This document shows, piece after piece, positions 6,553 through 22,599 of a stretch of 64,000 nucleotides of DNA (position 1 is the stretch's first letter; every line of letters begins with the position of its first letter). The notes beneath the pieces are model-generated. The model had not been told where the DNA came from. It worked only from the letters and a program-made list of their open reading frames with translations, and did not search any database. A program made the position numbers and the translations under genes. The DNA comes from Aromatoleum diolicum (GTDB taxonomy: Bacteria; Pseudomonadota; Gammaproteobacteria; Burkholderiales; Rhodocyclaceae), in contig NZ_WTVQ01000018.1 of the NCBI RefSeq assembly GCF_012910955.1, positions 1 to 64,000 on the forward strand. The letters run 5' to 3'.

Positions 6553-7740
6553 CTACATCCGGCAGCCGCGCGCAGGATCGGCCAGCGCCTTGGCGGCTAC
6601 CGACACCAACTTGTTTTCCTTCCCTTCCACCTTGCGCAGATAGATGTCCTGCACCGGGTTGTGCGCCTTGGAGAGCGTGAAGGCGCCGCGCGGGCTGTCG
6701 ATGGTCGCGCTCTCCATCGCCTTGATCAGTTCGGCGCGCTTGCCGACGTCGCCCTTGACCCCCGCGAGGCCAGCCCCGAACAGCTGCGCGGCGTCGTAGC
6801 CCTGCACGGCGAAGACGTCCGGCTGGACCTTGAACGCCTTGAAGTAGGCGGCCTTGAAGGACTTGCTCTTCGGAAAGTCGAGGTTATCGGCGTAGTGCAG
6901 CGTCGTCAGCAGGCCCTCGGCCGCCTCGCCCTGTGCTTCGAGCGTGCCGTCGGTGAGAAAGCCCGGCCCGTACAGGGGGATCGAAGTCCGCAGCCCGGCG
7001 GTCGCGTAATCCTTGACGAATTTGACCGCACCGCCACCGGAGAAGAACACGAACACCGCGTCGGGCTTGAGCGCAGCGATCTCGGTGAGATACGGCTGGA
7101 ATTCGACGTTCGGGAACGGCAGGTACATCTCCTTCACGACCTTGCCGCCCGCCTTCTCGAAGGCCTCCTTGAAGCCCGCCACCGATTGTTCGCCGAAAGC
7201 GTACTTCCAGCTCAGCGTGACCACGGTCTTGTGCTTGCGCTCCGCCATCACGTTGCCCATCGCATACGACGGCTGCCACGACGAGAACGAGGTGCGGAAG
7301 ATGTTCGGCGCACACAGCGGCCCCGTGATCTCGTCCGCCCCCGCGTTGGGAACGATCAGCAGCGTATTGGTCTCGCGTGCCACCCGCGCCATCGCCAGCG
7401 CCACGCCCGAATGCACGGTGCCGATCAGCACGTCGACCTTGTCGCGCTTGACGAGCTTGTTGGCGTTTTCCGGCGCCTTGGCAGGGTCAGACTCGTCATC
7501 CACGGTGAAGTACTCGATGTCCATGCCGCCCAGCTTGCCGCCGCTCTCCTCGACCGCCAGCTTGAATCCATTGGTGATGGCATTGCCCAGGGATGCGTAG
7601 GTGCCGGTGTAGGGCAGCATCAGTCCGATCCGGATCTTCCTGTTGCTCTGTGCGAAAAGCGGACTTGCGGGCAATGCGAGACCGGCTGCGACGCCGGCCG
7701 TCGACAGCAGGAATTGACGGCGATTAAAGCCTTGGTCCAT
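6553..7740 (-). CDS. Periplasmic substrate-binding protein of HAAT-type ABC importer (benzoate locus)
   Basis: 395 residues. The N-terminus has a twin-arginine-like signal (NRRQFLLSTAGVAAG), ending near ASPLFAQS, so the protein is exported to the periplasm. The mature part starts KIRIGLMLPYTGTYASLG, the classic opening of periplasmic binding proteins of the leucine/amide/aromatic group. A good ribosome-binding site (GGAGGAG) lies eight bases before the ATG. It precedes the permease and ATPase genes and follows bzdA, as expected for a benzoate-binding component. The ligand is inferred from location only. Confidence 0.88.
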   Translation of the reverse strand: MDQGFNRRQFLLSTAGVAAGLALPASPLFAQSNRKIRIGLMLPYTGTYASLGNAITNGFKLAVEESGGKLGGMDIEYFTVDDESDPAKAPENANKLVKRDKVDVLIGTVHSGVALAMARVARETNTLLIVPNAGADEITGPLCAPNIFRTSFSSWQPSYAMGNVMAERKHKTVVTLSWKYAFGEQSVAGFKEAFEKAGGKVVKEMYLPFPNVEFQPYLTEIAALKPDAVFVFFSGGGAVKFVKDYATAGLRTSIPLYGPGFLTDGTLEAQGEAAEGLLTTLHYADNLDFPKSKSFKAAYFKAFKVQPDVFAVQGYDAAQLFGAGLAGVKGDVGKRAELIKAMESATIDSPRGAFTLSKAHNPVQDIYLRKVEGKENKLVSVAAKALADPARGCRM

Positions 7741-7803
7741 GTCGGCACTCCTCCAGTGGTATGGCCGCTTTCTGCGGCTCTGTTTGTCGTTGTGCTGCGG
7801 AAC

Positions 7804-9405
7804 CTACACTGTGGAGACGGAACGCAGCTTGAATCGCTGAATCTTGCCTGTTGCCGTCTTCGGCAGTTCTTCGACGAACTCCAGCCAGCGCGGATACTTG
7901 TAGGGCGCCAGCTTCGATTTGACGTGCAGCTTGAGTTCCGCAGCGATGCTTTCCGACGGAGTCAATCCGGGCTTGAGCACGACGAACGCAAGCGGCTTGA
8001 TCAGGCCATCATCATCGGCCTTTCCCACCACCGCCGCTTCGAGCACCGCAGCATGTGTGATCAGCGCTGATTCGACTTCGATCGGCGATACGTAGATGCC
8101 GCCCACCTTGAGCATGTCGTCGTTGCGCCCGGCATAGTTGAAGTTGCCGTCCGCATCCTGGCTGTACTTGTCGCCGCTGCGCGTCCACTGGCCGACGAAG
8201 GTCTCACGACTCTTCGCCCGGTTGTTCCAGTAATACGCCGCACTGGTCGGTCCGCGCACCTGCAGTTCACCCGACTCGCCGGGGGCGACCTCCTCGCCGT
8301 CATCACCGATGAGGCGCAGCTCGTAACCGGGAACCGGCTTGCCGCTGCTACCGTAATGCACGTCTCCGGCCCGGTTCGACAGAAAGATATGCAGCATTTC
8401 GGTGGAACCCAGACCGTCGAGAATTTCCACACCAAAATGCTCGGTCCAGCGCTTGCCAACCTCCGCCGGCAGGGCTTCGCCTGCCGACGCGCAGCGGCGA
8501 ATCGACACCTCCTCGCGCCCCGGGAGTTCCTCACTCGCGAGCATCGAGGCGTACAGCGTCGGCACACCACAGTAGATCGTCGGCTGGTGCTCGCGCAGCA
8601 CCCGTGCCACGGACGCAGGCGTCGGCCGCTCTGCCATCAGCACAGCCGTTGCGCCAACCGCAAGGGGGAAGGTCAACCCGTTACCCAGACCGTAGGCGAA
8701 GAACAGTTTGGCCGCAGAAAAAACGACGTCATCCTCACGCACGCCAAGGATGGGGCGTGCATACAATTCGGCGGTATGGATCAGGCTCGAATGGACGTGC
8801 ACCGTGCCTTTCGGTGCGCCGGTAGAGCCCGACGAATACAGCCAGAAACAGGGATCATCGACACAGGTCGGCGCGGCTTCGAACGGCGGGCGCGGCGCCG
8901 CCACCAGTTCGGCAAAATCGAGATGACTCCCCCTCACGCCCGCATCGCCACCGGAGACGACGACGTTCTTGACGAAGGGGCTGGATTCGATCGCATTCGC
9001 GAAAGCCGGCAGCAACAGGGACGAAACCACCAGTGCACGTGCGCGGCTGTCGCGCAGCATGTAACTGTAGTCGGACGCAGTCAGCAGTGTGTTGACGGGA
9101 ATCGGGACGACACCGGCCTTGATGCAGCCGAGAAACGCCGTCGGAAAATCAATCGTGTCGAGCAGGCACAGCAATACCCGCTCTTCCATTCTGATACCAA
9201 GCTCGCCCAGCGCATGGGCGAAGCGGTCGACGCGCTCGGCCAGCTGTGCATAGGTGTGGCTGCCGGACTCGTCGATGATCGCAACCTTGTCACCACGACC
9301 GGCGCGCAGGTTGCGTTCGATCAAGTCGTGCGCGGCGTTGTAATCGCGCGGAATGGAAAGGCGCGGCGGGCTGACACCGTGATCCGCGCTGCTGAGTTCT
9401 GACAT
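7804..9405 (-). CDS. bzdA: Benzoate-CoA ligase (AMP-forming)
   Basis: 533-residue member of the ANL adenylating superfamily. The AMP-binding P-loop YSSGSTGAPKG is at residues 190-200, the YGLGNGLTFPL region follows, and the catalytic lysine of the C-terminal lid is K521 in TATGKIQR. Length and the N-terminal DYNAAHDLIERNL stretch match benzoate-CoA ligases of Thauera and Azoarcus (also called bclA). It activates benzoate with ATP and CoA to benzoyl-CoA in the cytoplasm, the first step of both the anaerobic pathway and the aerobic box pathway. GGAGGAGAAGG precedes the ATG. It lies between the SDR gene and the importer genes, linking uptake to activation. Confidence 0.93.
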   Translation of the reverse strand: MSELSSADHGVSPPRLSIPRDYNAAHDLIERNLRAGRGDKVAIIDESGSHTYAQLAERVDRFAHALGELGIRMEERVLLCLLDTIDFPTAFLGCIKAGVVPIPVNTLLTASDYSYMLRDSRARALVVSSLLLPAFANAIESSPFVKNVVVSGGDAGVRGSHLDFAELVAAPRPPFEAAPTCVDDPCFWLYSSGSTGAPKGTVHVHSSLIHTAELYARPILGVREDDVVFSAAKLFFAYGLGNGLTFPLAVGATAVLMAERPTPASVARVLREHQPTIYCGVPTLYASMLASEELPGREEVSIRRCASAGEALPAEVGKRWTEHFGVEILDGLGSTEMLHIFLSNRAGDVHYGSSGKPVPGYELRLIGDDGEEVAPGESGELQVRGPTSAAYYWNNRAKSRETFVGQWTRSGDKYSQDADGNFNYAGRNDDMLKVGGIYVSPIEVESALITHAAVLEAAVVGKADDDGLIKPLAFVVLKPGLTPSESIAAELKLHVKSKLAPYKYPRWLEFVEELPKTATGKIQRFKLRSVSTV

Positions 9406-9456
9406 TTCCTTCTCCTCCTTGAATTCGTGTGACCCTGCTACGCGGTGCGGTGTCGG

Positions 9457-10203
9457 CTAGTGAATGGTCATCCCGCCATCTGCTGCCAGCACCTGCCCGG
9501 TCACATAACTCGACGCGTCCGACGCGAAGAACAGGAACACCGGCGCGATCTCCTCCGGCTGCGCCCAGCGTCCGAGAGGAATTCGGTCGAGGTATTTGTC
9601 CTTGAAGCGCTCGTCGGTGCGGATGGTCTCGGTCATCGGCGTCGCCGCACCCGGCGCGATCGCGTTGGCGGTGATGTTGTAGCGCGCCAGTTCCTTGGCG
9701 GTGCTCTTGGTCATGCCGAGGATGCCGGCCTTGGCCGCGCTGTAGTTGATCTGGCCGATGGTGCCCAGCACGCCGGCCGTGGAGGTGACGTAGATGATGC
9801 GACCGTACTGGCGTTCGATCATGCCGCCGACGACGGCCTGCAGGCAGTTGAAGGCGCCGGTGAGATGCACCGCCAGCACCTGCTGCCACTGATCCGGCGT
9901 CATCTTGTTGAGCATCGCCGTACGCGTGATGCCGGCGTTATTGACGAGAATGTCGATGCGGCCCCAGGCCGCGTTCACCTGTGCCGCCATCGCCTCGACC
10001 TGTTCGCGGTTGGCAACATCGCAGGCCACGCCCAGCGCCTGACCGCCGCTTTCGATGATTTCCGCGGCAACACGATTGGCCGCGGCGAGATCGAGATCGA
10101 TCACCGCAACCTTCGCGCCTTCGAGCGCATAGGCCTTGGCAACCGTTGCACCGATTCCCTGCCCTGCCCCGGTCACGATGGCGACCCTGTCCTTTAATTG
10201 CAT
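9457..10203 (-). CDS. bzdZ: Short-chain dehydrogenase/reductase of the benzoate locus (BzdZ-like)
   Basis: 248-residue classical SDR. The NAD(P)-binding motif TGAGQGIG is at 11-18, NNAG at 88-91 and the catalytic triad S141, Y154, K158 (YSAAK). The aspartate ending beta-2 (VAVIDLD) favours NAD(H). The start MQLKDRVAIVTG has GGGAG upstream; a longer frame reaches into a non-coding repeat and was rejected. By position it corresponds to bzdZ in strain CIB, a dehydrogenase proposed to act in the modified beta-oxidation branch, but which hydroxyacyl-CoA it oxidises cannot be told from the sequence. Confidence 0.87.
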   Translation of the reverse strand: MQLKDRVAIVTGAGQGIGATVAKAYALEGAKVAVIDLDLAAANRVAAEIIESGGQALGVACDVANREQVEAMAAQVNAAWGRIDILVNNAGITRTAMLNKMTPDQWQQVLAVHLTGAFNCLQAVVGGMIERQYGRIIYVTSTAGVLGTIGQINYSAAKAGILGMTKSTAKELARYNITANAIAPGAATPMTETIRTDERFKDKYLDRIPLGRWAQPEEIAPVFLFFASDASSYVTGQVLAADGGMTIH

Positions 10204-10280
10204 GGCTGCTCCCTTTCGCCCCGCGGCGACCCATCCTGTCGTTGCGCTGCCAATTCTCCCCTTCCCTGAAGCCGAAAAGA

Positions 10281-10322
10281 CCGGGGTGGAAGGAAACGGC
10301 ATCACCGCTGCCCCCACCCCGG
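10281..10322 (-). promoter_or_regulatory. Intercistronic inverted repeat between bzdY and bzdZ
   Basis: CCGGGGTGG (10281-10289) is perfectly complementary to CCACCCCGG (10314-10322). A second, overlapping pairing of CCCTTCCC (about 10259-10266) with GGGAAGGG (10321-10328) is mutually exclusive with it. The gap is 157 bp, long for this operon, and holds no gene. No U-run follows on the minus strand. A role in mRNA processing or in limiting expression of the distal genes is inferred. Confidence 0.5.
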
Positions 10323-10360
10323 GAAGGGAGAGACCTTACAAAACCAGCACAATCAATTCG

Positions 10361-11491
10361 TCAGGATTTCGGCTTGGCCAGCACCTGCTCGGCGAACGCC
10401 TCGTCGAACACGGCGCCCTCGGCCACCAGCTGACGGTACTTGATGAAGTCGATCACGTCCTTGCCAGTCTGCTTCTTGCTGTCGAACGCGGTGAAGCCGA
10501 GATAGGCCTCGTGATTCATGTTCGCAGCGAGCCAATGACGGTTGGCGAGCTTCATCTGGTCCCAGAAGAACTTCTTCTTGCCGCGGATGCCGTCGATCGA
10601 CTTGATCAGGCAGTGCGGGAACAGGTTCGTGAACTTCCACACCAGCGCATTGACCGCTTCGTCGAGCTTCGAGAAGTCCGTCGTGCATTGCGCGATCAGT
10701 TCCTTCGCTGCCTGCGTCTTGTCGGCGGCGACCGACTCGCCATACACCAGTTCGCCGTCATCGACGTAGGCGTCGGTGCGCACCAGCGGGTTGCGGACCC
10801 ATTCACCGTCCTTCTTCAGCACCGGCACGACCTTCGTGACGAGGTTCTTCGCCTTCATCTTGTAGGCGCTCCACGGCTCGCACGAGATGCAGTTGTACAT
10901 CGCATCTTCCATGTTCAGCATCCACGGCAGGAAGTCGGTCGAGCCGCCATCCGGCGCGCTGCCGTGCTTCGGGCCGGCCTGGCCGAACACCGCCATGTCC
11001 GACGTGATCGTGATGTCGGTCGCCATGCCGATTTCCTGGCCACCGCCGACGCGCATGCCGTTCACGCGGCAGATCACCGGCTTCTTGCAGTTCAGGATGC
11101 CGTCGACCATCAGGTTGAACAGATCCATGTATTCGCCATACTCGTTGGGGCGCTTCGAGTAGTACGCGGCGTATTCGGCCGTATTGCCGCCGGTGCAGAA
11201 CGCCTTGTCGCCGACTGCGGTGAATACCGCGGCGACGATCGAGCGGTCGGCCGACGCACGCTGGAAGCCGGCGATGACGGCCTTGACCATCTCTGTGGTG
11301 TAGGAGTTGTACTGCGTCGGGTTGTTCAGGATGATCCATGCCGCGTACAGGCCCGGGACCTGGTTACCCTGCGGGTCGGTCACCGGTCGCTTTTCAAAGA
11401 CGACCGACGGGGCTTCGGTACCGAAATGCTCTTCGCCGAGCAGGGCGTGATCCTTGATGCCGTTGTCGCGGCGCAGCCAGTTGAGTGCCAT
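10361..11491 (-). CDS. bzdY: 6-oxocyclohex-1-ene-1-carbonyl-CoA hydrolase (ring-opening)
   Basis: 376 residues, longer than simple crotonases as is usual for this hydrolase (Oah in Thauera). It has the crotonase oxyanion-hole regions: AFCTGGNTAEYAAYY, then MRVGGGQEIGMATDI in the middle of the protein. The enzyme adds water to 6-oxocyclohexene-carbonyl-CoA and opens the ring to 3-hydroxypimelyl-CoA, the last ring step of the benzoyl-CoA pathway. It follows bzdX directly (36 bp gap) and precedes bzdZ, as in the CIB operon. Confidence 0.92.
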   Translation of the reverse strand: MALNWLRRDNGIKDHALLGEEHFGTEAPSVVFEKRPVTDPQGNQVPGLYAAWIILNNPTQYNSYTTEMVKAVIAGFQRASADRSIVAAVFTAVGDKAFCTGGNTAEYAAYYSKRPNEYGEYMDLFNLMVDGILNCKKPVICRVNGMRVGGGQEIGMATDITITSDMAVFGQAGPKHGSAPDGGSTDFLPWMLNMEDAMYNCISCEPWSAYKMKAKNLVTKVVPVLKKDGEWVRNPLVRTDAYVDDGELVYGESVAADKTQAAKELIAQCTTDFSKLDEAVNALVWKFTNLFPHCLIKSIDGIRGKKKFFWDQMKLANRHWLAANMNHEAYLGFTAFDSKKQTGKDVIDFIKYRQLVAEGAVFDEAFAEQVLAKPKS

Positions 11492-11527
11492 GAGATGTCT
11501 CCTGTCTATTGTCAGTTGCGTGCGTAA

Positions 11528-12595
11528 TCAGAAATCGGGCGTCAGGATGACGCGCCGCTTGAGCTTGCCGTGGTGTGCTTCGTCGAACACTTGTTCGATC
11601 TGGCTCATCGGGCGGGTTTCGACGAATGGTCCGAGCTTGATGCGCCCATCGAGGCACATGTCGCGCACCGCCGCGTAGCGGTCTGGCGGGCAGCCCCAGG
11701 TGCCGATGATCTCGGCATCGAAGGCCATCAGCTTCGACAGCATGTAGCTGGTCTCGGCGGTGCCGTAGCCGACGATTACCAGCTTGCCGGTGAAGGACAG
11801 CAGCGACAGCGCAAGCTCCTGGCCGGGTTTGCTGCCGGTGACCTCGAAAATCTTCCAGCCGTAGTTCGACGGCAGGCCGCGTTCCTTGCAGAAGGCCTTG
11901 AAGAGTTCCTTGACCTCCTTCGCGCTCTTGTCCTTCGGGTTGATGACGAAGTCGGCACCGAAGTCCTTCATCATCACCAGCTTCTCTTCATTGATGTCGA
12001 TGCCGATGACGGCCTTCGCGCCCATGCCCTTCGCAGTCTGCACCATGAAGCTGCCGACGCCGCCGGCGGCGCCGATGACGATCACCAGATCGTCCTTCTT
12101 CAGGTCGGCGCGCACCGCCGCCTGATACGGCGTCGTCACCGCATCGGCCACCACCGCGAGGTGCTCGAGCGGCGTGTCGCCACGGTTCTCGACCACGCAC
12201 AGGTACTTCGACTGCGCGACGATGTGGCTCGAATAGCCGCCGTAGATGCCCATCGAGTTGCCCGGCATCTTCTGCGCGAGACAGCGGTTGCCGCGCCCGG
12301 TCTTGCACAGCTCGCACTCGCCGCAGGGGATCACCGCCGGCACGATCACTTCCTTGCCGATCATCGACGCTTCACCGCCGATCACCACGCCGGAGATCTC
12401 GTGGCCGAGCGACAGCGGAGGCTTCTGCATCGTCGCCACGCCCATGTAGAAGTACGACAGGTCGGTGTGGCACACGCCGCAACCGGCGATCTTCACGACG
12501 ACGTCGCCAGCGCCTAGTTCGGGCATCGGCACGCGGGTCTTCAGCAGCTTGCCCGGCTCGGTCATCTGCCAGGTATCAATGAATTCTGGAATCAC
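11528..12595 (-). CDS. bzdX: 6-hydroxycyclohex-1-ene-1-carbonyl-CoA dehydrogenase
   Basis: 355-residue zinc alcohol dehydrogenase family protein (Had in Thauera). The catalytic zinc region GCGVCHTD contains C39 and C42 and is followed by GHE at 64-66; the structural zinc cysteines are C91, C94, C97 and C105. The nucleotide fold has GAAGGVGSFMVQ. The start is GTG at 12593-12595 with GGGAG seven bases upstream. It oxidises the hydroxy-enoyl-CoA made by BzdW with NAD+. An unusually long inverted repeat lies in the 174-bp gap upstream. Confidence 0.92.
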   Translation of the reverse strand: MIPEFIDTWQMTEPGKLLKTRVPMPELGAGDVVVKIAGCGVCHTDLSYFYMGVATMQKPPLSLGHEISGVVIGGEASMIGKEVIVPAVIPCGECELCKTGRGNRCLAQKMPGNSMGIYGGYSSHIVAQSKYLCVVENRGDTPLEHLAVVADAVTTPYQAAVRADLKKDDLVIVIGAAGGVGSFMVQTAKGMGAKAVIGIDINEEKLVMMKDFGADFVINPKDKSAKEVKELFKAFCKERGLPSNYGWKIFEVTGSKPGQELALSLLSFTGKLVIVGYGTAETSYMLSKLMAFDAEIIGTWGCPPDRYAAVRDMCLDGRIKLGPFVETRPMSQIEQVFDEAHHGKLKRRVILTPDF

Positions 12596-12769: not shown

Positions 12770-13549
12770 TCAGCAGTTGCGCCACACCGGCTTGCGCTTT
12801 TCAAGGAACGCCGCGAGACCTTCCTTCGCGTCCTCGGTCACCATCAGCTCTTTCAGGTAGATGTTCTCGGCCGTATCGAGCGCCGCACCGAAAGGCTTGT
12901 CGGCCACTGCGCGGATCGTCTTGCGTGTGCTCACCAGCGCCGCGCGGCTCAGCCCCAGGAAGGGCGCGACAAAGCCCTGCACGTCGGCAGCGAAACTCTC
13001 CTTGGCGAAAACCCGGTTCACCAGCCCGATTGCCTTCGCCTCGTCCGCGCCGATGTTCTCGCCACCCAGCAGCAGTTCCAGCGCACGCGCCGGCGGCACC
13101 AGGCGCGGCAGCAGCACCGCGGCGATCGGCGGGAACACCGCGAGCTTGATCTCCGGCTGGCCGAACTTCGCATTCGCTGCCGCAACGATCATGTCGCAGG
13201 CGATCGCCACTTCCATGCCGCCCCCGAGCGCAACACCGTTGACCGCAGCAAGCGTCGGCACCGGCAGCTGCTGCATGCGGCGGAAGATGCCATGGAAGAC
13301 CTCGATCATGCGGTCGACCTTGTCCGGCGTGTGGTCCGCGACCTCGACGCCGGCCGAAAAGGCTTTCTCGCCCGCGCCGGTGATCATCAGCAGCTTCACG
13401 CTCGTATCGGCGACGCACTGGTCCAGCGCGACGTTCATCTCCTCCATTGTCGGGATGTCGAGCACGTTGAACGGTGGCCGGTTGATCGTCAGCGTCGCGA
13501 GGCCGTCGGCCACGCCGTAGGTGATGAACTGGAATTGCGCTTGCGTCAT
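12770..13549 (-). CDS. bzdW: Cyclohexa-1,5-diene-1-carbonyl-CoA hydratase
   Basis: 259-residue crotonase-superfamily enzyme (Dch in Thauera). Oxyanion-hole segments are EKAFSAGVEVADHTP and NGVALGGGMEVAIACD. The start MTQAQFQFITYG has GGGAG seven to eight bases upstream. It hydrates the dienoyl-CoA product of benzoyl-CoA reductase to 6-hydroxycyclohex-1-ene-1-carbonyl-CoA. The order W-X-Y places the three consecutive reactions in pathway order, and the gene follows a small Cys-rich open frame. Confidence 0.92.
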   Translation of the reverse strand: MTQAQFQFITYGVADGLATLTINRPPFNVLDIPTMEEMNVALDQCVADTSVKLLMITGAGEKAFSAGVEVADHTPDKVDRMIEVFHGIFRRMQQLPVPTLAAVNGVALGGGMEVAIACDMIVAAANAKFGQPEIKLAVFPPIAAVLLPRLVPPARALELLLGGENIGADEAKAIGLVNRVFAKESFAADVQGFVAPFLGLSRAALVSTRKTIRAVADKPFGAALDTAENIYLKELMVTEDAKEGLAAFLEKRKPVWRNC

Positions 13550-13581
13550 GTTGTCTCCCGATGTCACTGAATTTCAGTGGT

Positions 13582-13764
13582 TCAGTTTTCGTTCTTCATT
13601 TGCAGTCGGTACGGACAAACCGCATCGCAGTCCGCACAGCACACTTCGCCGTCGCAGCGGATGTGCCACAGGTCCGCGCCGCAGTTCGTGCACCGGCATT
13701 TGGCGTCCGGCTTGATGGCGGGGCGGATCTCCTCCGCCGACCAGAAATCGATCACCTGTCCCAT
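13582..13764 (-). CDS. Small cysteine-rich protein between bzdV and bzdW, function unknown
   Basis: 60 residues with nine cysteines, arranged as C-x-C-x2-C (CRCTNC), then C (IRC), and C-C-x2-C-x3-C (CCADCDAVC). The spacing fits a zinc ribbon or a small metal/iron-sulfur protein. The start follows bzdV by ten bases, so the two genes are likely translationally coupled, and a gap of 32 bases separates it from bzdW. I do not recognise the family and know of no assigned role in benzoate breakdown. The density of Cys pairs and the tight operon position argue that it is real. It could be an assembly factor or redox partner of BzdV or the reductase. Confidence 0.7.
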   Translation of the reverse strand: MGQVIDFWSAEEIRPAIKPDAKCRCTNCGADLWHIRCDGEVCCADCDAVCPYRLQMKNEN

Positions 13765-13774
13765 GTGGCGCCCC

Positions 13775-16324
13775 TTAGAACAAGTCGTCCAGCTCGTCGG
13801 AACCGCCGCCGGGCATCTTCCCGTACTGCTGCAGGTAGGCCTGGATCATCTGGCTCTCGCGCGAGGTGTACATCGCCGCTTCCTCGAACACGAAGTTGGT
13901 CGCCTCGCTACCGCGCTCGAGCTGCTCCGTCAGGCCATCGCGCAGATTCTCGACGCCCTTGATCATCATTACGTTCTTGTCCGCATCGAGCAGCTGGAAC
14001 ACGCCCGCCTCGGTCGGCACTGCAGCGATTGCCGCGGCGTCGAAGGTCAGTGACGACTCCGGTGGCAGCACCGCGTCGGCAATCTTCGGCGCGAGGTTGC
14101 ACTTGAAGCAGCGCGCCGCCTCGGCCCGCGCAGTGGCGTCGTCGAAGCCCAGCTCCACCTCATCCCAGCCGCTGCGTGCTTCCGGCGCCAGCATGATCGG
14201 GTGGAACTTGCGCGTCTTGTTGAAGCCTTCCTTGCGGCCGATATAGGGGCTGGTTTCCCAGCCGTCGCGCAGCAGCACTTCCGAGATGTCGCCGTCGCCG
14301 CCGAGCGCCTTGTCCATCGCCGAGGCCGCGACGCGCCCCTGAGCGACCGACTCGATCAGCGTCGATGGTCCCATCACGCAGTCGCCGCCGGCATACACGC
14401 CGGGCCGGCTGGTGAGCATCGAGTCCTCGCGCACCGTGATGCGCCCCTTGCGGTCGGTCTCGACGCCGAAGCCTTCGTAGCGCTTGGGGTACTGCCCGAC
14501 CGCCGAGATCACCAGATCGACACCTTCGGTGACTTCCTCGCCGGTCTCGACCGGGCGACGACGGCCCGACGCGTCCGGTTCGCCGAGGCTCATCCTGGCG
14601 TAGGTAATCTGCAGCCGGCTGCCGTTGTCGCCTGCCTCGATCTTCTTCGGCGCGAGCAGGTAGCGGATATTCACCCCTTCCTCGACGCAACCTTCGAACT
14701 CTTCGAGACGTGCCGGCATTTCCTCACGGGTCCGGCGATACACCATATCGACGTCGGCACCGAAACGACGCGAGCTGCGTGCGTTGTCGGTCGCGACGTT
14801 GCCGCCGCCGATCACCGCGACTTTCTTGCCGGTCTGGATGCCATCGGGCGTGTTCACCAGATCCATCGTCACCGCCTGCAGGTAAGTCGGGCTATCGATC
14901 ACGCCGGGCAGGTCGTCACCCGGGATGCCGAGCGTGTCGCCCCCCTGGCAACCGATGCCGACGAACACCGCGCCAAAACCATCACCGAAGAGCGTATCGA
15001 CATTCTCGATGCGCGCACCGTACTGGAATTGCACGCCAAGCGCAGCGACCTCGGCGACTTCGTCGTCGATGACCTCGGCGGGCACGCGATACGAAGGAAT
15101 GCCGTAGCGCGCCATGCCACCGGCCGCGGGCTGGGCATCGAAAATCGTCACGGCGTGGCCCTGTTTCGCGAGGTAGTAAGCAACCGTCAGACCCGCCGGA
15201 CCGGCGCCGACCACCGCCGCCTTCTTGCCGGTCGCGGGCAGCTTCTTGGCATGCTCGCGCCAGATCCCGGTATCGTTGTCCGCGGCGATACGCTTGAGGT
15301 TGCGGATCGACAGCGGGTCGTCGAGGTCCTTGCGACGGCATGCGGACTCGCACATCGCAAAGCATGCTCTCCCGAGGATGCCGGGGAACGGCAGCTTTTC
15401 GCGCACCACCGCGATCGCCTCGCCATATTTGCCTTCGGCCGCAAGTTGCACGTAGCGCGGCACATCGATGCCGGCCGGACAGGCCGACTTGCACGGCACC
15501 ATCGACTCTTCGCGTTTGGCGGGATCGAGCGTGCGATCCATCAAGGCACCGGTCGGGCACACCGTCACACAGGCCTGGCAGAAGGTACAGCCGGACTCGA
15601 TCAGCGTCGGCGCGATCGTGCCGACATAAGTGCGCTTGCCCTGCGGCGTCTCGACTTCCTTCACTTCGAGACAACCGACTCCGCGCACGTCGTTACAGGC
15701 GACGAGACAGCGGCGGCAGTCGATACACAGGTTGTAGTCGCGATCGAAGAAAGGTTCGTTCTTGATCACCGGCAACTGCACCGGCTTGTATGGGGGCGTC
15801 GAGTTGGGGATGCCGATGTAATCGGAAACCTTGCGCAACTCGCAGCTCGAAAAGATCGTACAGCAGCGCGTCTCGGGCGGATTACCGTAGGAACACTGCG
15901 AGCGCGAACAGCCGTCGCGCTGGGGACAGGTCAGGCACACGTGCGGATGCGGACCGAGAATCTTCGCAAGACTCGCTTGGCGCGACTGCTGGATCGCTGA
16001 CGATTGTGTCGACACCACCATACCGGCGGACACCGTCGTCGAACAGGCTTTCGCAAGCCCGTCCACACCGCCGATCTCCACCATGCACAGGTTGCAACCG
16101 CCGTCACCCGCGCCACGCTGGCCGGCCGGCGGCAGATCGGGGTGCGCACACAACGCCGGAATGTAGAGGCCGGCGGCCGTTGCCGCATTCAGTACCGAAG
16201 CACCCGCGGGGGCCTCGACTTCGACGCCGTCGATACTCAGACGGACGGTCTCGCCGAATTCGGCCATCCCGGCCGGCCGGCTCGCCTTCCACCACCTGAT
16301 TTCGGTTGTCTGTACGGCTTCCAT
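13775..16324 (-). CDS. bzdV: Large iron-sulfur flavoprotein oxidoreductase, BzdV
   Basis: 849 residues built from several modules. An N-terminal 2Fe-2S ferredoxin-like domain (cysteines near 59, 77, 80, 94) is followed by a NuoG-like Cys-rich stretch (HVCLTCPQRDGCSRSQC, about 128-144), two 4Fe-4S ferredoxin motifs (CIDCRRCLVAC at about 200-210 and CTFCQACVTVCP at about 246-257) and a GltD-like half from about 275 on. That half has the FAD motif VVGAGPAGLTVAYYLAKQGH (about 371-390) and a second dinucleotide motif VIGGGNVATDNARSS. Such a protein can move electrons between NAD(P)H and ferredoxin, and it is the natural candidate for supplying low-potential electrons to the reductase through BzdM. 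The start MEAVQTTEIRW is chosen by family fit. Confidence 0.85.
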   Translation of the reverse strand: MEAVQTTEIRWWKASRPAGMAEFGETVRLSIDGVEVEAPAGASVLNAATAAGLYIPALCAHPDLPPAGQRGAGDGGCNLCMVEIGGVDGLAKACSTTVSAGMVVSTQSSAIQQSRQASLAKILGPHPHVCLTCPQRDGCSRSQCSYGNPPETRCCTIFSSCELRKVSDYIGIPNSTPPYKPVQLPVIKNEPFFDRDYNLCIDCRRCLVACNDVRGVGCLEVKEVETPQGKRTYVGTIAPTLIESGCTFCQACVTVCPTGALMDRTLDPAKREESMVPCKSACPAGIDVPRYVQLAAEGKYGEAIAVVREKLPFPGILGRACFAMCESACRRKDLDDPLSIRNLKRIAADNDTGIWREHAKKLPATGKKAAVVGAGPAGLTVAYYLAKQGHAVTIFDAQPAAGGMARYGIPSYRVPAEVIDDEVAEVAALGVQFQYGARIENVDTLFGDGFGAVFVGIGCQGGDTLGIPGDDLPGVIDSPTYLQAVTMDLVNTPDGIQTGKKVAVIGGGNVATDNARSSRRFGADVDMVYRRTREEMPARLEEFEGCVEEGVNIRYLLAPKKIEAGDNGSRLQITYARMSLGEPDASGRRRPVETGEEVTEGVDLVISAVGQYPKRYEGFGVETDRKGRITVREDSMLTSRPGVYAGGDCVMGPSTLIESVAQGRVAASAMDKALGGDGDISEVLLRDGWETSPYIGRKEGFNKTRKFHPIMLAPEARSGWDEVELGFDDATARAEAARCFKCNLAPKIADAVLPPESSLTFDAAAIAAVPTEAGVFQLLDADKNVMMIKGVENLRDGLTEQLERGSEATNFVFEEAAMYTSRESQMIQAYLQQYGKMPGGGSDELDDLF

Positions 16325-16371: not shown

Positions 16372-17013
16372 CTAGGCCGCCTGCGCCAGTCCGACGTAAC
16401 CCGGGAAGTAGCTTCCCTGGCACGCACCGGCGCGCACCGCCGCGATAAAACTTGCCATGTCGGTCACGGGCTGCTGGAACTTCGTCGCACAGCGCCCCAC
16501 CGCTTCGGTCTTGTGGCAATCGCTGCCGCCCAGCGCCGGCAAGGCCATGTGCCGCGCGGCGTTGATCGCCAGCTCATTGTCACTTTCACGGTTGCTGCCG
16601 TTGTGGGTTTCCACCCCGGCGATTCCGCGCAGGTCGAGCAGGCCTTCCAGCAGGCTCGCGACCCCGACCTCGCGGAAAGGATGTGCCGGCACGCAGATTC
16701 CCCCCAGGCTGTTGATGTGCGCGATGACTTCGGCGATCGGGAGGTAGTTGTCGCGCCCCCAGATGTTCCAACCGTCGTCCTCGACGCCATACGCCAGCAT
16801 GTGTCCGCGATCGGTTGCGATCTCCACCCCACGCAGCACCAGCAGACCCTCGTCGCGCCCCACCTGCTCCACAGGTTCCGACGCTTCGTACGAATAATGC
16901 TCGGTGATGCAAACCCCATCGAGTCCCAGTGCCTTCGCGCGACGGACCAGGTCCACCGGCTCCAGCCAGTTGTCGTAGGAGTACTTGGTGTGGCAATGGC
17001 AATCGATCCACAT
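16372..17013 (-). CDS. bzdU: PHP-domain putative metallo-phosphoesterase (position of bzdU)
   Basis: 213 residues of the PHP fold. Metal ligands are visible in order: H6 and H8 (CHCHTKYS), H39 (ITEHYS), E64 and H71 (GVEIATDRGHML), H111 (AHPF), D165 and H167 (GGSDCHK). The catalytic set is therefore complete. PHP enzymes hydrolyse phosphoesters, for example nucleoside 3',5'-bisphosphates or histidinol phosphate. The gene name is by synteny only (third gene between the ferredoxin and bzdV). A plausible but unproven role is clearing a phosphorylated by-product such as a CoA-derived nucleotide. Confidence 0.78.
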   Translation of the reverse strand: MWIDCHCHTKYSYDNWLEPVDLVRRAKALGLDGVCITEHYSYEASEPVEQVGRDEGLLVLRGVEIATDRGHMLAYGVEDDGWNIWGRDNYLPIAEVIAHINSLGGICVPAHPFREVGVASLLEGLLDLRGIAGVETHNGSNRESDNELAINAARHMALPALGGSDCHKTEAVGRCATKFQQPVTDMASFIAAVRAGACQGSYFPGYVGLAQAA

Positions 17014-17043: not shown

Positions 17044-17496
17044 TCAGGAAACCGTGTACTCGAGGTTGATGCGCTTGGACGGCGAGAAACGCTGGCGGGA
17101 GAAGAATTTCTCCAGCGCGAAGTCGTCCCAGTTCACCAACGTGTACACCTTGTTCACCCCTGCGGCCTTCATGTTCATCATGAACTGGTCGAGCAGTTCG
17201 CTCGCGACGCCGCGATTCTGGAAGCGCGGATCGACGCCGATCGTGTCGATGGTCGCGGTGGTCTCGGGAATACCGAATTCGCCGAAATAGATGTCACCCA
17301 TCACGAAGCCGGCGACCTTGCCGTCGATCTCGCAGACGATCGACGCATTGATGTTGTGCTTCGGGTTCAGGATCGCATCGAGCTTGCGCTCGTAGTAGTC
17401 ACGGCGATTCTGCTTGGAACCCGCTGCGTCGATCTCCACGATCGCATTCAGGTCGTCCTGCTTCAGCACCCGCATTACACGCTTCTGATCGGCCAT
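17044..17496 (-). CDS. bzdT: GNAT-family N-acetyltransferase (position of bzdT)
   Basis: 150 residues with the GNAT core: beta-strand TATIDTIGVDP, acetyl-CoA pyrophosphate loop RFQNRGVASELL, then the C-terminal VYTLVNWDDFALEKFFSRQ. The ribosome-binding site AAGGAGATAGGGAA precedes the ATG. It lies in the operon between a short acidic protein gene and the PHP gene. Acceptor unknown; it might acetylate a pathway protein such as the CoA ligase, as Pat/GNAT enzymes do, but nothing in the sequence shows this. The gene letter comes from order alone. Confidence 0.78.
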   Translation of the reverse strand: MADQKRVMRVLKQDDLNAIVEIDAAGSKQNRRDYYERKLDAILNPKHNINASIVCEIDGKVAGFVMGDIYFGEFGIPETTATIDTIGVDPRFQNRGVASELLDQFMMNMKAAGVNKVYTLVNWDDFALEKFFSRQRFSPSKRINLEYTVS

Positions 17497-17549: not shown

Positions 17550-17876
17550 TCAGAACAGTTCGTCTTCCTGCTGGGGCTTCGCGGCGCGGCGCGTATACAC
17601 AGTGCCGATCACCTTCCCCATTTCCTGGTCGGCGTCGAGGCAGGTCGTGCACCCGTCGCCTTCGGTCTGATACGTTTCGACGTGTACCTCGAACCCCATG
17701 CCCCGGTAAGCCTCGGCAATTTCGGACAGGCGCGGTTCACCAATCGTCGTCAGGCGCTTCCAGCCCTGACGCAGCAGGCGGTCTTCCACCTCCTCTTCCT
17801 GGCTTGCCGACGCCAGCTTGATCGGGATCGTCTTCTTGGTGCTCATCGCGAAACCCTCCGTCATCGCCCGGTTCAT
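17550..17876 (-). CDS. bzdS: Small protein of the benzoate operon (position of bzdS), function unknown
   Basis: 108 residues from the first ATG, which has AGGAGG five bases upstream; a second start at 17846 (MSTKKTIPIK) also has a good site, so the N-terminus is uncertain. No signal peptide or membrane helix. A single CTTC pair lies in GDGCTTCLDADQEMG. The C-terminus QQEDELF resembles the tails of BzdN and BzdV. It starts nine bases after bzdM, so it is co-translated with the ferredoxin. I do not recognise the fold; a role in assembling or regulating the electron-transfer proteins is possible. Confidence 0.7.
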   Translation of the reverse strand: MNRAMTEGFAMSTKKTIPIKLASASQEEEVEDRLLRQGWKRLTTIGEPRLSEIAEAYRGMGFEVHVETYQTEGDGCTTCLDADQEMGKVIGTVYTRRAAKPQQEDELF

Positions 17877-17885
17877 GGCCGCCTC

Positions 17886-18170
17886 CTACCAGGAGTGCTT
17901 GATCGCGCCCGGAGTACAGGCGGTGGTACAGGGCAGGCTGGTGTGGCCACCGGCCGGCTTGCACTCGGCACAGTCGTACGCCAGGGTGCGCGTATTCGAT
18001 TTCTTCACCCAGGCCACTTCGTCATCGTAGTCATCGGTGATCATTTCGAACATTTCTTTCGGGCACGCGGTCAGACAGGCCCGGTTCGCTGCACAGTCGA
18101 TACACTTGTCGGTATCGATGCTGATGTAATACTCGCCGGACCCGTCCTTGTAGCCGTAGTTCGCGATCAT
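17886..18170 (-). CDS. bzdM: 2[4Fe-4S] ferredoxin, electron donor of benzoyl-CoA reductase
   Basis: 94 residues. The first cluster motif is CIDCAANRACLTACP, with three extra residues between the second and third Cys compared with standard ferredoxins. The second is CAEC, then after ten residues CTTACTP. This irregular spacing is seen in the ferredoxins that serve benzoyl-CoA reductase. The ATG has AGGAGA eight to nine bases upstream. A strong stem-loop in the 106-bp gap after bzdQ precedes the gene, which may alter its expression relative to the reductase subunits. Confidence 0.9.
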   Translation of the reverse strand: MIANYGYKDGSGEYYISIDTDKCIDCAANRACLTACPKEMFEMITDDYDDEVAWVKKSNTRTLAYDCAECKPAGGHTSLPCTTACTPGAIKHSW

Positions 18171-18276: not shown

Positions 18277-19194
18277 TTAAGCTGCTTTCGCCTGCTTCTG
18301 CATCAGCGTGTAGCCGAACAGGGCCGCGCCCAGCGCACCGGCGATCTGGCTGTCGATCTTGGTATCGACCGCCTTGATGCCGAGAATCCGCTCGATGCGC
18401 TTCACCACGCCCGGGTTCTTCGCGATGCCGCCGGTGATGAAGAAGCCCTCTTCCACACCGATCCGCTCCAGCAGGCTCACCACACGCTCGGCCATCGCCT
18501 GGCAGTACGCCGCGATGACCTTGTTCTTCGTGTAGCCGGCCTTCAGCAGGCCCAGCGCCTCGGATTTCGCGAACACCACGCAGATCGACGAAACCGCTTC
18601 CGGCTCCACATCCACGTCGAACGAGCGCGGGCCCAGTTCGGCGATCGGGATCTGCATCAGATCGGAGATGACTTCCATGCCGCGGCCGGTACCAGCTGCG
18701 CACTTGTCGTTCATCAGGAAGTTGGTGACCTTGCCCTTCTCGTCACAGTGGATGGCCTTGCAGTCCTGGCCGCCCATGTCGAGAATCGTGCGCACCTTGT
18801 TGCCGCCCATGTAGTTCGCGCCGCGGGCGTGGCAGGCGATCTCGGTGATCGCCTTGTGGGCAAACGGCACGTTCACCCGGCCGTAGCCGGTGCCGACGAC
18901 ATAGTGGATGTCCTCGAGCTTCATGCCGATCTTGTCCATGATGCCCTGCAGCGCATTCTTCGCCGAGTCCGGCGAGTTGTTGCCGGTGCGCATGCTGTTG
19001 TAACCGAACAGCTCGCCGTCACAGACGATGACCGCCTGCGAGGACACCGAGCCGACGTCGATGCCGCAGGTGATGACCTTTGCATCTTTCCAGTTCTTCG
19101 TCTCGTCGAACCAGACGTTTTCCTGCCAGCGCCAGAATTCCTTCTTCTCGGGGGCCGCTTCTGCCACGGTAGCAGCTGCAACTTCTGCGTTCAT
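18277..19194 (-). CDS. bzdQ: Benzoyl-CoA reductase, ATP-binding subunit BzdQ
   Basis: 305 residues of the BadF/BadG/BcrA/BcrD ASKHA ATPase family. The phosphate-1 loop is GIDVGSVSSQ (44-53), phosphate-2 is LDMGGQDCK (139-146) and the adenosine motif is GGIAKNPGVV. C165 (NDKCAAGTG) and C205 (SSICVVFAKSEA) match the cysteines that bridge one [4Fe-4S] cluster between the two ATPase subunits. The module hydrolyses ATP to push electrons into the BzdNO catalytic module. The N-terminal 40 residues before the ATPase fold are extra relative to BzdP. Confidence 0.93.
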   Translation of the reverse strand: MNAEVAAATVAEAAPEKKEFWRWQENVWFDETKNWKDAKVITCGIDVGSVSSQAVIVCDGELFGYNSMRTGNNSPDSAKNALQGIMDKIGMKLEDIHYVVGTGYGRVNVPFAHKAITEIACHARGANYMGGNKVRTILDMGGQDCKAIHCDEKGKVTNFLMNDKCAAGTGRGMEVISDLMQIPIAELGPRSFDVDVEPEAVSSICVVFAKSEALGLLKAGYTKNKVIAAYCQAMAERVVSLLERIGVEEGFFITGGIAKNPGVVKRIERILGIKAVDTKIDSQIAGALGAALFGYTLMQKQAKAA

Positions 19195-19231
19195 TTGATC
19201 GCTCCTTTATCCGTATCTATCGCGTATCGGT

Positions 19232-20041
19232 TCAGTGCTGACGTTCGGCCGCAATCAGCGCGCAGCCAAGCGCGCTGACGAATTCCGGCAGATCGGGCAG
19301 CAGGACCTGATCGACATCCATCGCGTTCTTCAGCGAAGCGACGAAGCCCGGGTTGTGCACCATTCCCCCGATCAGCACGACGTTGCCTTCGATGCCGACG
19401 CGGCGCACCATCGCGCACACCCGGCTTGCCACCGCGTCGAGCACCGCCTTCGCGATGTCTTCCTTGGGCGTCGCCGAGTGGATCAGCGACACCACTTCGG
19501 ACTCGGCGAACACCGTGCATTGCGCGTTCATCGGAATGCTCTTGTCCGAACGCAGACTCGCTTCACCGAACTCCTTCAGCGACATCTGCAGCGCCCGGCT
19601 CATCGCCTCGGCGAAGGAACCCGCCCCAGCGGCGCACTTCTCGTTACCGGCAAAGTCGATCGCCTTGCCATCGGAGTCGGTCTTGATGCCGCGACCTTCC
19701 TCGGCACCGACATCGACCACGGTGCGGGCCTGCGGATACATGAACACCGCGCCCTTTGCACCGGCAGTCATCTCGGTGACGCCTTCGGTCGCGAACTCGA
19801 CCTGCTTGCGCCCGGCACCGGTCGCGAACACCGACGTGACCTGGTCACGCGACACCCCGGCCGCGGCCAGCGCTTCGGTGAAGGCCTTCTCGGCGGCCTG
19901 ATCGGCATCGATATCGCCCGGCATCATCAGATGCGCTTTCTTGACCGAGTAGTTCAGTTGCGGTGCGCCATCCACCTTGATCTCTTCCAGCAGCACAACC
20001 TTCACGCTGCGGGAGCCCATGTCGATTCCAGCGGTAATCAT
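19232..20041 (-). CDS. bzdP: Benzoyl-CoA reductase, ATP-binding subunit BzdP
   Basis: 269 residues, same ATPase family as BzdQ. Phosphate-1 is GIDMGSRSVK (5-14); C136 (NEKCAAGAG) and C175 (NAQCTVFAESE) match cluster cysteines; the adenosine motif is GGMVHNPGFV. The phosphate-2 region reads VVDVGAEEGRGIK (108-120) where BzdQ has the canonical GGQD, so the two ATPase subunits are not equivalent. GGAGGAG lies upstream of the ATG. It probably forms the BzdPQ activating module with one bridging cluster. Confidence 0.92.
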   Translation of the reverse strand: MITAGIDMGSRSVKVVLLEEIKVDGAPQLNYSVKKAHLMMPGDIDADQAAEKAFTEALAAAGVSRDQVTSVFATGAGRKQVEFATEGVTEMTAGAKGAVFMYPQARTVVDVGAEEGRGIKTDSDGKAIDFAGNEKCAAGAGSFAEAMSRALQMSLKEFGEASLRSDKSIPMNAQCTVFAESEVVSLIHSATPKEDIAKAVLDAVASRVCAMVRRVGIEGNVVLIGGMVHNPGFVASLKNAMDVDQVLLPDLPEFVSALGCALIAAERQH

Positions 20042-20073
20042 CCTCGTCTCCTCCTAGGGTTCCAGTATTCCGA

Positions 20074-21402
<1,329 letters not shown>

Positions 21403-21407
21403 TCAGT

Positions 21408-22547
21408 TCAGAACAGCTCTTCTTCGCTCAACGTCTCGAGGAATGCCTCGATACGGATTCGGAAGGGGCCGATCGGGTTCGTGATGTCGAATTCCAGGAA
21501 CAGCGTCGGGATGCCATTGGCTTCCAGGTGACGCTTCAGATCCGGGTAATCGCCCTCGTGCGGATCGCAGAACTTCTGCTGCAGGAAGATGGCGCCCTGA
21601 ACGTCGTAGTCCTTGGCCAGGCCGAGCACGTGGTCGAAACGGGTGTGGACCGGGTAATCCTTGGTCGGACAGGCCGGACGATCGCAATAACGATCGGCAA
21701 TTGCCTTGATGACGTCGGTCTCGGGCTTCGACTCGTTCCAGAAGTAACGAGTACCGGAGCACTGGTCGTCGATGACAATGGTCGCGCCGACCGACTCCAC
21801 CATCGCCATGAACGCGATGTCGTCGTTCTCTGAACCGATGGTCATGAAGCGGGCACCGGTCTTGCGCTCGACCTGGCGAGCCGGCAACGCAGCCAGAACC
21901 TTCTTCAGTTGCTCGTTGTGTTCGCGCTTGTCGATGAACTGCGCGGTCAGCGACGCGTACACCGCTTCGACACCGGTCACCTTCGGGTTGGCATCCTTGC
22001 GGTAGTCGAAGAGCTGGCGCAGCAGGCGGCGGTTCTCGTCGACCACTGCCAGCGATTCGCGCAGCATGTCGTCGGTAATCGTCTTGCCGGTCAGCGTCTG
22101 CAGGAACACGCGGAACGATTGCAGCTCCTCGTAATGCGCCTTGCGGGCATGCGGCGACTGCACGTCGTTCGGCATCGGCACGTAGTAGTCCCACTTCACG
22201 GTCGGGACATGCATGCGCCACGAACCGAAAGTCTGGCGGTACTGGATGCACGACTGCGTCAGGGTCACGCCTTCGGCGTAATCGAAACGGCCGAGCAGGC
22301 CCTGCGCCAGCGAGTCGCGGCAGAACGGACAGAACATGCCGAAGATGTGCGGCTCGGTCACGTTTTGCGGTTCGTGGGCACCAAGCACGCGCACCGGCAA
22401 CATCCCGGCAGCGATCAGCAACTCCTCGGCGGTGTAGGTACACATCGTCGCCACCACTTGGCCACCGGTCCGAGCCTTCCAGTCCCGTGCATAATCGTGG
22501 CGCTTCTCGTACCAGGTCTTGAACTGGTCGAACAAACCATCGCTCAT
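21408..22547 (-). CDS. bzdN: Benzoyl-CoA reductase, catalytic subunit BzdN (BcrC-like)
   Basis: 379 residues, HgdB superfamily, first structural gene of the operon. Visible landmarks are the N-terminal YTAEELLIAAGMLPVRVLG, the Cys pair in FGMFCPFCRDSLAQG, the central DDQCSGTRYFW and the C-terminal LEFDITNPIGPFRIR, all at places expected for cluster and substrate binding. The start MSDGLFDQFKTW has AGGAGATAG upstream; 11 in-frame residues further upstream are not used. The tail ends SEEELF. The 5' leader from the inferred start site is about 77 bases and contains a TGCA operator motif. Confidence 0.93.
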   Translation of the reverse strand: MSDGLFDQFKTWYEKRHDYARDWKARTGGQVVATMCTYTAEELLIAAGMLPVRVLGAHEPQNVTEPHIFGMFCPFCRDSLAQGLLGRFDYAEGVTLTQSCIQYRQTFGSWRMHVPTVKWDYYVPMPNDVQSPHARKAHYEELQSFRVFLQTLTGKTITDDMLRESLAVVDENRRLLRQLFDYRKDANPKVTGVEAVYASLTAQFIDKREHNEQLKKVLAALPARQVERKTGARFMTIGSENDDIAFMAMVESVGATIVIDDQCSGTRYFWNESKPETDVIKAIADRYCDRPACPTKDYPVHTRFDHVLGLAKDYDVQGAIFLQQKFCDPHEGDYPDLKRHLEANGIPTLFLEFDITNPIGPFRIRIEAFLETLSEEELF

Positions 22548-22599
22548 CGAACTATCTCCTCTGATGTGTCCGCGGGCCAATTACCGGATCCACGGTTGC

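Follow-up and report, generated by a model that had tools for sequence, protein, structure and literature searches.

Genes of the bzd type are published as the operon string bzdNOPQMSTUVWXYZA (PMC6678401, in the part available). The core of the benzoyl-CoA reductase has been produced on its own: BzdNO of strain CIB, expressed from a bzdNO plasmid in E. coli, contained iron-sulfur clusters with 10.9 Fe per dimer and yielded an X-ray structure with the catalytic cluster; it catalysed the reverse reaction only, with no forward reduction with the donors tried (PMC11971306, likewise in part). The route by which NADPH electrons reach the very low potential needed for benzoyl-CoA reduction in the bzd-type pathway looks unsettled, since the available parts of PMC5658619 and PMC6678401 describe BzdV as no more than a putative oxidoreductase (in the former, a putative NADPH:ferredoxin oxidoreductase). 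A second protein encoded right behind BzdV, such as the one described here, would offer a direct handle on this electron-supply question.

BzdV combines a NuoG-like [2Fe-2S]/[4Fe-4S] N-terminus with a GltD-like flavin part. In complex I, the counterpart of NuoG is NDUFS1. The small zinc subunit NDUFS6 contacts NDUFS1, its knockout in Yarrowia leads to loss of cluster N4, and it is also found in some bacterial enzymes (PMC7699753, in the part available). In the electron-bifurcating hydrogenase HydABC, the subunit HydB carries a zinc site near its flavin and a mobile iron-sulfur domain (PMC9499530, also in part).

A small gene between bzdV and bzdW

The window, a stretch of 64,000 nucleotides from Aromatoleum diolicum, contains the bzd genes in the order bzdR, N, O, P, Q, M, S, T, U, V, [mini-gene], W, X, Y, Z, A, with bzdR, M, S, T, U, Z, and A named by position, aided by domains. 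The mini-gene is a real, optional, and unlettered gene in a well-studied operon, and is ordinary in kind. The features are as follows, in window coordinates.

7804 to 9405, minus strand: bzdA, benzoate-CoA ligase (by position; AMP-binding)
9457 to 10317, minus strand: bzdZ, short-chain dehydrogenase (by position; start approximate)
10361 to 11491, minus strand: bzdY, 6-oxocyclohex-1-ene-1-carbonyl-CoA hydratase/hydrolase (TIGR03200 above cut-off)
11528 to 12595, minus strand: bzdX (TIGR03201 above cut-off)
12770 to 13549, minus strand: bzdW (ECH_1; best NCBIfam model TIGR03189 at 172 bits, under its cut-off of 292.5; name also by position)
13563 to 13581, no strand assigned: imperfect palindrome CACTGAATTTCAGTG in the spacer between mini-gene and bzdW, terminator-like on the plus strand only
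13582 to 13764, minus strand: gene of the probable zinc-ribbon-like mini-protein (translation, pN/pS, conservation)
13775 to 16324, minus strand: bzdV, putative NADPH:ferredoxin oxidoreductase (849 aa from the ATG at 16324; Fer2_4, Fer4_20, Pyr_redox_2)
16372 to 17013, minus strand: bzdU, PHP-domain protein (by position)
17044 to 17496, minus strand: bzdT, GNAT acetyltransferase (by position; start at MADQ... inferred)
17550 to 17876, minus strand: bzdS, 108 aa (by position; no Pfam match at E≤1e-5)
17886 to 18170, minus strand: bzdM, ferredoxin (by position and cysteine motifs; no Pfam match at E≤1e-5)
18277 to 22580, minus strand: bzdQ, bzdP, bzdO, and bzdN, ATP-dependent benzoyl-CoA reductase (NCBIfam models TIGR03192, TIGR00241, TIGR03191, and TIGR03190, respectively, all above cut-off)
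22966 to 23862, minus strand: bzdR, repressor with HTH and shikimate-kinase-like domain (by position)

The mini-gene is a frame of 60 codons on the minus strand (13764-13582), where the entire bzd operon lies; read on the plus strand, these positions give a different sequence. By translation, its product is MGQVIDFWSAEEIRPAIKPDAKCRCTNCGADLWHIRCDGEVCCADCDAVCPYRLQMKNEN, with eight cysteines at positions 23, 25, 28, 37, 42, 43, 46, and 50. The start follows the bzdV stop after a gap of 10 nt (13765-13774), and the end lies 32 nt before the probable ATG of bzdW (13549). An earlier note on this DNA had reported the 60-residue frame without naming a strand, had placed it ten bases after bzdV and just before bzdW, and had pointed out its motifs CRCTNC and CCADCDAVC; all of this holds, although its count of nine cysteines was one too many. 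It had also stated that the gene naming has no member at this place, and the published string indeed has no letter there (PMC6678401, in the part available). In the accessible parts of the literature on the bzd operon no mention of the mini-gene was found, a statement that does not extend to print or public annotation at large.

Because the ratio of nonsynonymous to synonymous differences per site (pN/pS; 16 coding sequences of the genus, 15 of them distinct) is as low as 0.107 in its own frame, versus 1.26 and 5.6 in the two shifted frames, the mini-gene is a genuine gene, with purifying selection acting on its frame. An antisense artefact of the plus-strand frames at 13561-13962 and 13577-14053 was considered and rejected, the frame test, which compared three minus-strand frames, favouring the minus-strand frame described here.

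On the operon strand, promoter- or terminator-like sites were looked for between 13300 and 14000, and none was found. The palindrome CACTGAATTTCAGTG is not a terminator for the bzd operon, because it is terminator-like only when read on the plus strand; by eye, it is absent from the 60 nt downstream of the mini-gene in 15 other members of the genus. The same spacer is about 75 nt longer in G008 (L012, approximately 1320-1500) than in G005 and G007, and there it contains an inverted repeat, TTCGCCCTGAGCC...GGCTCAGCCCGAAC, resembling a REP-type element. Elsewhere in the operon, bzdS is another member without an assigned family.

Linkage to bzdV and distribution

Among the window's genome and 60 relatives, the mini-gene is present at E≤0.001 in 17 of 61 genomes, comprising 16 of the 17 belonging to the genus Aromatoleum and one other. 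In G011, the sole genus genome without it, neither bzdV (at E≤1e-80) nor bzdN (at E≤1e-20) was matched. Identity of the mini-protein to the window copy is 85%–98% within the genus and 50%–83%, over the aligned part, in ten loci outside it. In 297 genomes of the family, bzdN was found at E≤1e-100 in 51 and the mini-protein at E≤1e-10 in 22; on the assumption that both draws of 297 genomes are one set, as their handles indicate, the mini-protein occurs in 21 of the 51 genomes with bzdN versus 1 of the 246 without. That one genome, G095, has the mini-gene behind bzdV near a contig end, with no bzdN even at E≤1e-20. All 22 family genomes matching profile A1 at E≤1e-10 have the mini-gene after bzdV. 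At the laxer limit of E≤0.01, 30 of the 51 bzdN-bearing genomes still have no mini-protein match.

The mini-gene is linked genetically to bzdV and tracks with it, a relationship that the earlier note had proposed to check. In a set of 57 bzdV loci—the window, 52 loci in 51 other bzdV-matching genomes, and four more of the genus, with G134 contributing two loci and, for G170, the one of its two pieces with the 3′ end—the mini-gene stands directly after bzdV in 26 and is absent from 31. The 26 are made up of 16 loci of the genus together with G025, G077, G095, G134 (one of its two loci), G142, G188, G240, G259, G312, and G323. In every locus carrying both genes (26/26), the mini-gene is the next gene after bzdV, and in 25 of these its start lies between -1 and +14 nt from the bzdV stop; in G188, G240, and G259, stop and start overlap. 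Between the bzdV stop and the probable start of bzdW lie 221–318 nt in loci with the mini-gene (25 loci; in G095 the contig ends) and 2–178 nt in those without it (29 loci; G170 and G181 have no bzdW in the stretch). A CxxC-x(8-25)-CxxC motif between bzdV and bzdW was found in all 26 loci with the mini-gene and in none of the 31 without, the scanned stretch beginning 30 nt ahead of the bzdV stop and ending 60 nt inside bzdW or, where bzdW was not found, after 500 nt.

Overlooked homologues in the gene-less loci were sought by three-frame translation of nine bzdV-bzdW junctions, which revealed none, in agreement with the motif scan (0/31). Tracking with a type of bzdW was likewise rejected: BzdW is 56%–100% identical to that of the window in loci with the mini-gene, yet 82%–84% identical in two loci without it.

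Since 31 of the 57 bzdV loci are without it, the mini-gene is most likely optional and not a general part of the bzd system, and BzdV presumably can work without the mini-protein. The earlier note had seen in it a candidate for an undescribed part of this system and would have counted its absence from related bzd loci against that reading: what stands is a conserved gene without a letter, present after bzdV in 26 loci, and what falls is its generality.

Within the genus, two bzdN genes over the family cut-off are present in 11 of 12 genomes of the family draw and in all four genus genomes matched in a further search, and bzdV was matched just once, at E≤1e-80, in every one of the 12 genus genomes that have it. 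The window's own genome has its second bzdNOPQ locus on contig 60 (L148, 8000-27900), where the genes lie on the reverse strand at 7158-12024 together with a bzdT-like gene. The mini-gene goes with bzdV and not with the reductase genes, because this second locus shows neither: over the 19.9 kb covered there, tblastn gave no match to bzdV or the mini-protein at E≤1e-4. Identities between the second locus and the window are 88% for N, 77% for O, 88% for P, and 98% for Q; as Q is 98% identical while N, O, and P reach only 77%–88%, the sequences suggest recent gene conversion of bzdQ.

A protein rich in cysteines, encoded among many iron-sulfur enzymes, might be taken for an iron-sulfur scaffold or assembly factor of the benzoyl-CoA reductase BzdNOPQ. 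We regard this as highly improbable, given that the second bzdNOPQ locus has no copy within the 19.9 kb covered, that most bzdN-bearing genomes of the family have no match, and that three of the cysteines (C23, C37, and C50) are not invariant. Moreover, assembly of the clusters of the core BzdNO by the mini-protein is unlikely because recombinant BzdNO, expressed in E. coli with a bzdNO plasmid, contains such clusters, a result that concerns BzdNO only and a preparation with no forward activity with the donors tried (PMC11971306, in the part available). Of the earlier note's proposal of a metal or iron-sulfur assembly factor for BzdV or the reductase, metal binding stays plausible, and assembly of the reductase core is unlikely. 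The functional bzd cassette pLB1 is uninformative on whether the mini-gene is dispensable because it spans the cluster from bzdR to bzdA (PMC5658619, in part).

Larger groups were sampled by draws from the class, order, and phylum. Only the window's own genome matches the mini-protein at E≤0.001 among 369 genomes of the class; a broader profile gave four other, weak matches among 300 genomes of the order (E 1.5e-7 to 6.5e-5); and the only matches among 378 genomes of the phylum are a strong one in the own genome and two weak ones elsewhere (E 8e-5 and 9e-4). These two weak phylum matches were left uncounted, as were those in G191, G287, and G295 (E 0.008-0.009), four in the class draw (E 0.001-0.005), and a match on contig 113 of the own genome.

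Several gains, losses, or exchanges probably mark the history of the mini-gene, a reading that is tentative because a protein of 60 residues carries little signal. On a quick tree of BzdV, built from 55 of the 57 proteins (two shorter than 600 residues were left out), the distribution of the mini-gene requires at least five changes, four of them forced by starred branches. The BzdV of G323 groups with that of G312 and with gene-less relatives (87%–92% identity), being 87% identical to the BzdV of G312 and 74% to that of G240; its mini-protein, however, has its nearest counterpart, within the set compared, in G240 (76% identity, with a similar C-terminal tail) and is only 60% identical to that of G312. 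This probable exchange between lineages speaks against tight co-adaptation of mini-protein and BzdV. Across the 26 loci, identities of the two proteins correlate with r = 0.87 (325 pairs, uncorrected for shared ancestry).

Such a patchy record (26 of 57 loci, with its several changes), the exchange in G323, and the existence of relatives outside any bzd operon—on contig 92 of the own genome and in four members of the order—could be read as marks of a passenger: a small zinc-ribbon protein that landed behind bzdV and was kept for a reason unrelated to benzoate, or only for translation coupling at the junction. Strong purifying selection within the genus and a position that is the same in all loci with the gene, and in all 22 strongly matching family genomes, argue the other way, and we consider a passenger unlikely.

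Cysteine core and relatives

The mini-protein is probably a small zinc-ribbon-like protein, classed as such by its motif and relatives and not by a curated family. Its core is CxxC-x14-CxxC. C25, C28, C42, C43, and C46 are invariant in all 26 members, C50 is kept in 25 (it is missing in G095), C23 in 19, and C37 in 16; the CxxC pairs C25/C28 and C43/C46 also occur in all rows of profiles A2 and A4. The second knuckle reads CCADC followed by D or E in 26/26 members, and 24/26 end this region with CxxxCP. The variability of C23, C37, and C50 speaks more for a zinc ribbon with four cysteines than for an iron-sulfur scaffold. In L030, L031, L033, L034, L050, and L094, which come from members of genus g2 and a Sulfuritalea MAG, the C-terminus is extended and includes an additional cysteine within R-[RQ]-x-x-C.

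The [4Fe-4S] ferredoxin motif is CxxCxxCxxxCP. The mini-protein shares with 2[4Fe-4S] ferredoxins such as BzdM a small size, a richness in cysteine, and the operon, but not this motif; a ferredoxin reading of its CxxxCP ending was rejected, because the motif is incomplete and neither G095 nor the relatives outside the operon have C50.

The window mini-protein has no match in Pfam (E≤1), NCBIfam (E≤0.1), or PHROG (E≤1), and hence none to a curated zinc-ribbon model. Weak library matches of its members include Zn_ribbon_RRN7 (3 of 13 members, best E 0.051), A2L_zn_ribbon, and QRL_CxxC_CxxC, while the commonest family is DUF7567, of unknown function (6 of 13, best E 0.0037). An AlphaFold model is of low confidence (mean pLDDT 63, pTM 0.33), with short strands at 33-35 and 41-43, and structure comparison of this low-confidence model gave a best Foldseek E of 3.1 and, with VIA, nothing at Z≥2.

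Distant relatives lie outside the operon. P0005, encoded on contig 92 of the own genome, is 37% identical to the mini-protein over 46 residues, and hhalign of the mini-protein against the outside relatives aligned the core with probabilities of 96.7% and 96.6%, from shallow profiles compared one to one. P0005 and the proteins of four order members (L134-L137) share with the mini-protein an N-terminal M-x-x-[VI]-[VI], then CxxC, 14 residues, and CxxC. They differ in that P0005 is on another contig than bzdV and is without C50, and that L134-L137 are without C42 and C50 and have different ends. The phage family phrog_3207, of unknown function, is weakly matched by P0005 (E 0.18), L134 (0.008), and L137 (0.03), in contrast to the window mini-protein. 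P0005 itself (L018, 1483-1773) has 96 residues with CxxC...CCxxC and lies downstream of a 304-aa frame that by eye resembles a short-chain dehydrogenase; a similar protein is found in G009 (L019).

Viral contigs contained no relative of the mini-protein, and tblastn with an order-member relative gave no match in phages. In plasmids, the single tblastn match of the mini-protein (E 0.4) has a frame interrupted by a stop codon and was taken as chance; P0005 gave one match there, at E 0.09, covering residues 49-82 from the last core cysteine region.

Zinc ribbons commonly bind nucleic acids, and some of the weak library matches are transcription related (Zn_ribbon_RRN7 and RNA polymerase subunit P), so that regulation of bzd operon expression or translation by a nucleic-acid-binding ribbon might be envisaged. 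It appears quite unlikely, however: the mini-protein is net acidic (10 acidic and 7 basic residues), nothing specific was found, and the operon already has BzdR as its regulator (PMC6678401, in the part available).

The four cysteines might instead hold iron, in a rubredoxin-like one-iron protein or another redox carrier between BzdV and a partner. The knuckles of rubredoxin are CxxCG and CPxCG, and rubredoxins have potentials much too high to drive benzoyl-CoA reduction. The first knuckle of the mini-protein fits CxxCG, its neighbour is an electron-transfer enzyme, and there is a weak match to an artificial miniaturised rubredoxin (E 0.76). The second knuckle departs from CPxCG, though, and the same core is kept by distant relatives outside the operon; together with the potentials, this makes an iron-holding carrier very unlikely.

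Proposed role beside BzdV

The preferred reading is a role for BzdV itself, to which adjacency of the two genes points indirectly. With moderate confidence, we propose that the mini-protein is an optional zinc-ribbon accessory subunit or an assembly or stability factor of BzdV. By motif and relatives, C25, C28, C43, and C46 would hold one zinc ion, with C42 and, in nearly all members, C50 stabilising or modifying the site. The position of the gene suggests that translation of the mini-protein would be coupled to that of bzdV and keep pace with BzdV synthesis, and that the mini-protein would act on BzdV as such a subunit or factor. It could perhaps help to load or shield one of the BzdV iron-sulfur clusters or, alternatively, dock a partner such as the ferredoxin BzdM.

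Such an arrangement would follow the logic of NDUFS6, a small zinc subunit touching the NuoG-like subunit of complex I. The likeness is one of logic only—a small zinc protein beside a NuoG-like iron-sulfur subunit—as NDUFS6 has the zinc motif C-X8-H-X7-C-X2-C (PMC7699753, in the part available), whereas the mini-protein lacks this motif and any Pfam match. The zinc site of HydB, too, differs: its ligands, three Cys and a single His, are part of a large subunit, whereas the mini-protein is a separate protein. A further-reaching idea, which we hold to be rather unlikely, is that a portable zinc subunit alters the action of BzdV, for instance by providing a docking site or protecting a cluster. 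NADPH would then reduce the low-potential ferredoxin that serves benzoyl-CoA reductase in a regulated or coupled reaction, and loci with and without the mini-gene would represent two working versions of one electron supply.

In practice, producing Aromatoleum BzdV without the mini-protein may give an incomplete enzyme. Loci with and without the mini-gene provide a clean natural comparison, even within one cell: G134 has two bzdV loci, on contigs 26 and 91 (L088 and L101), with bzdV 81% and 75% identical to that of the window, and the mini-gene is present in the first only.
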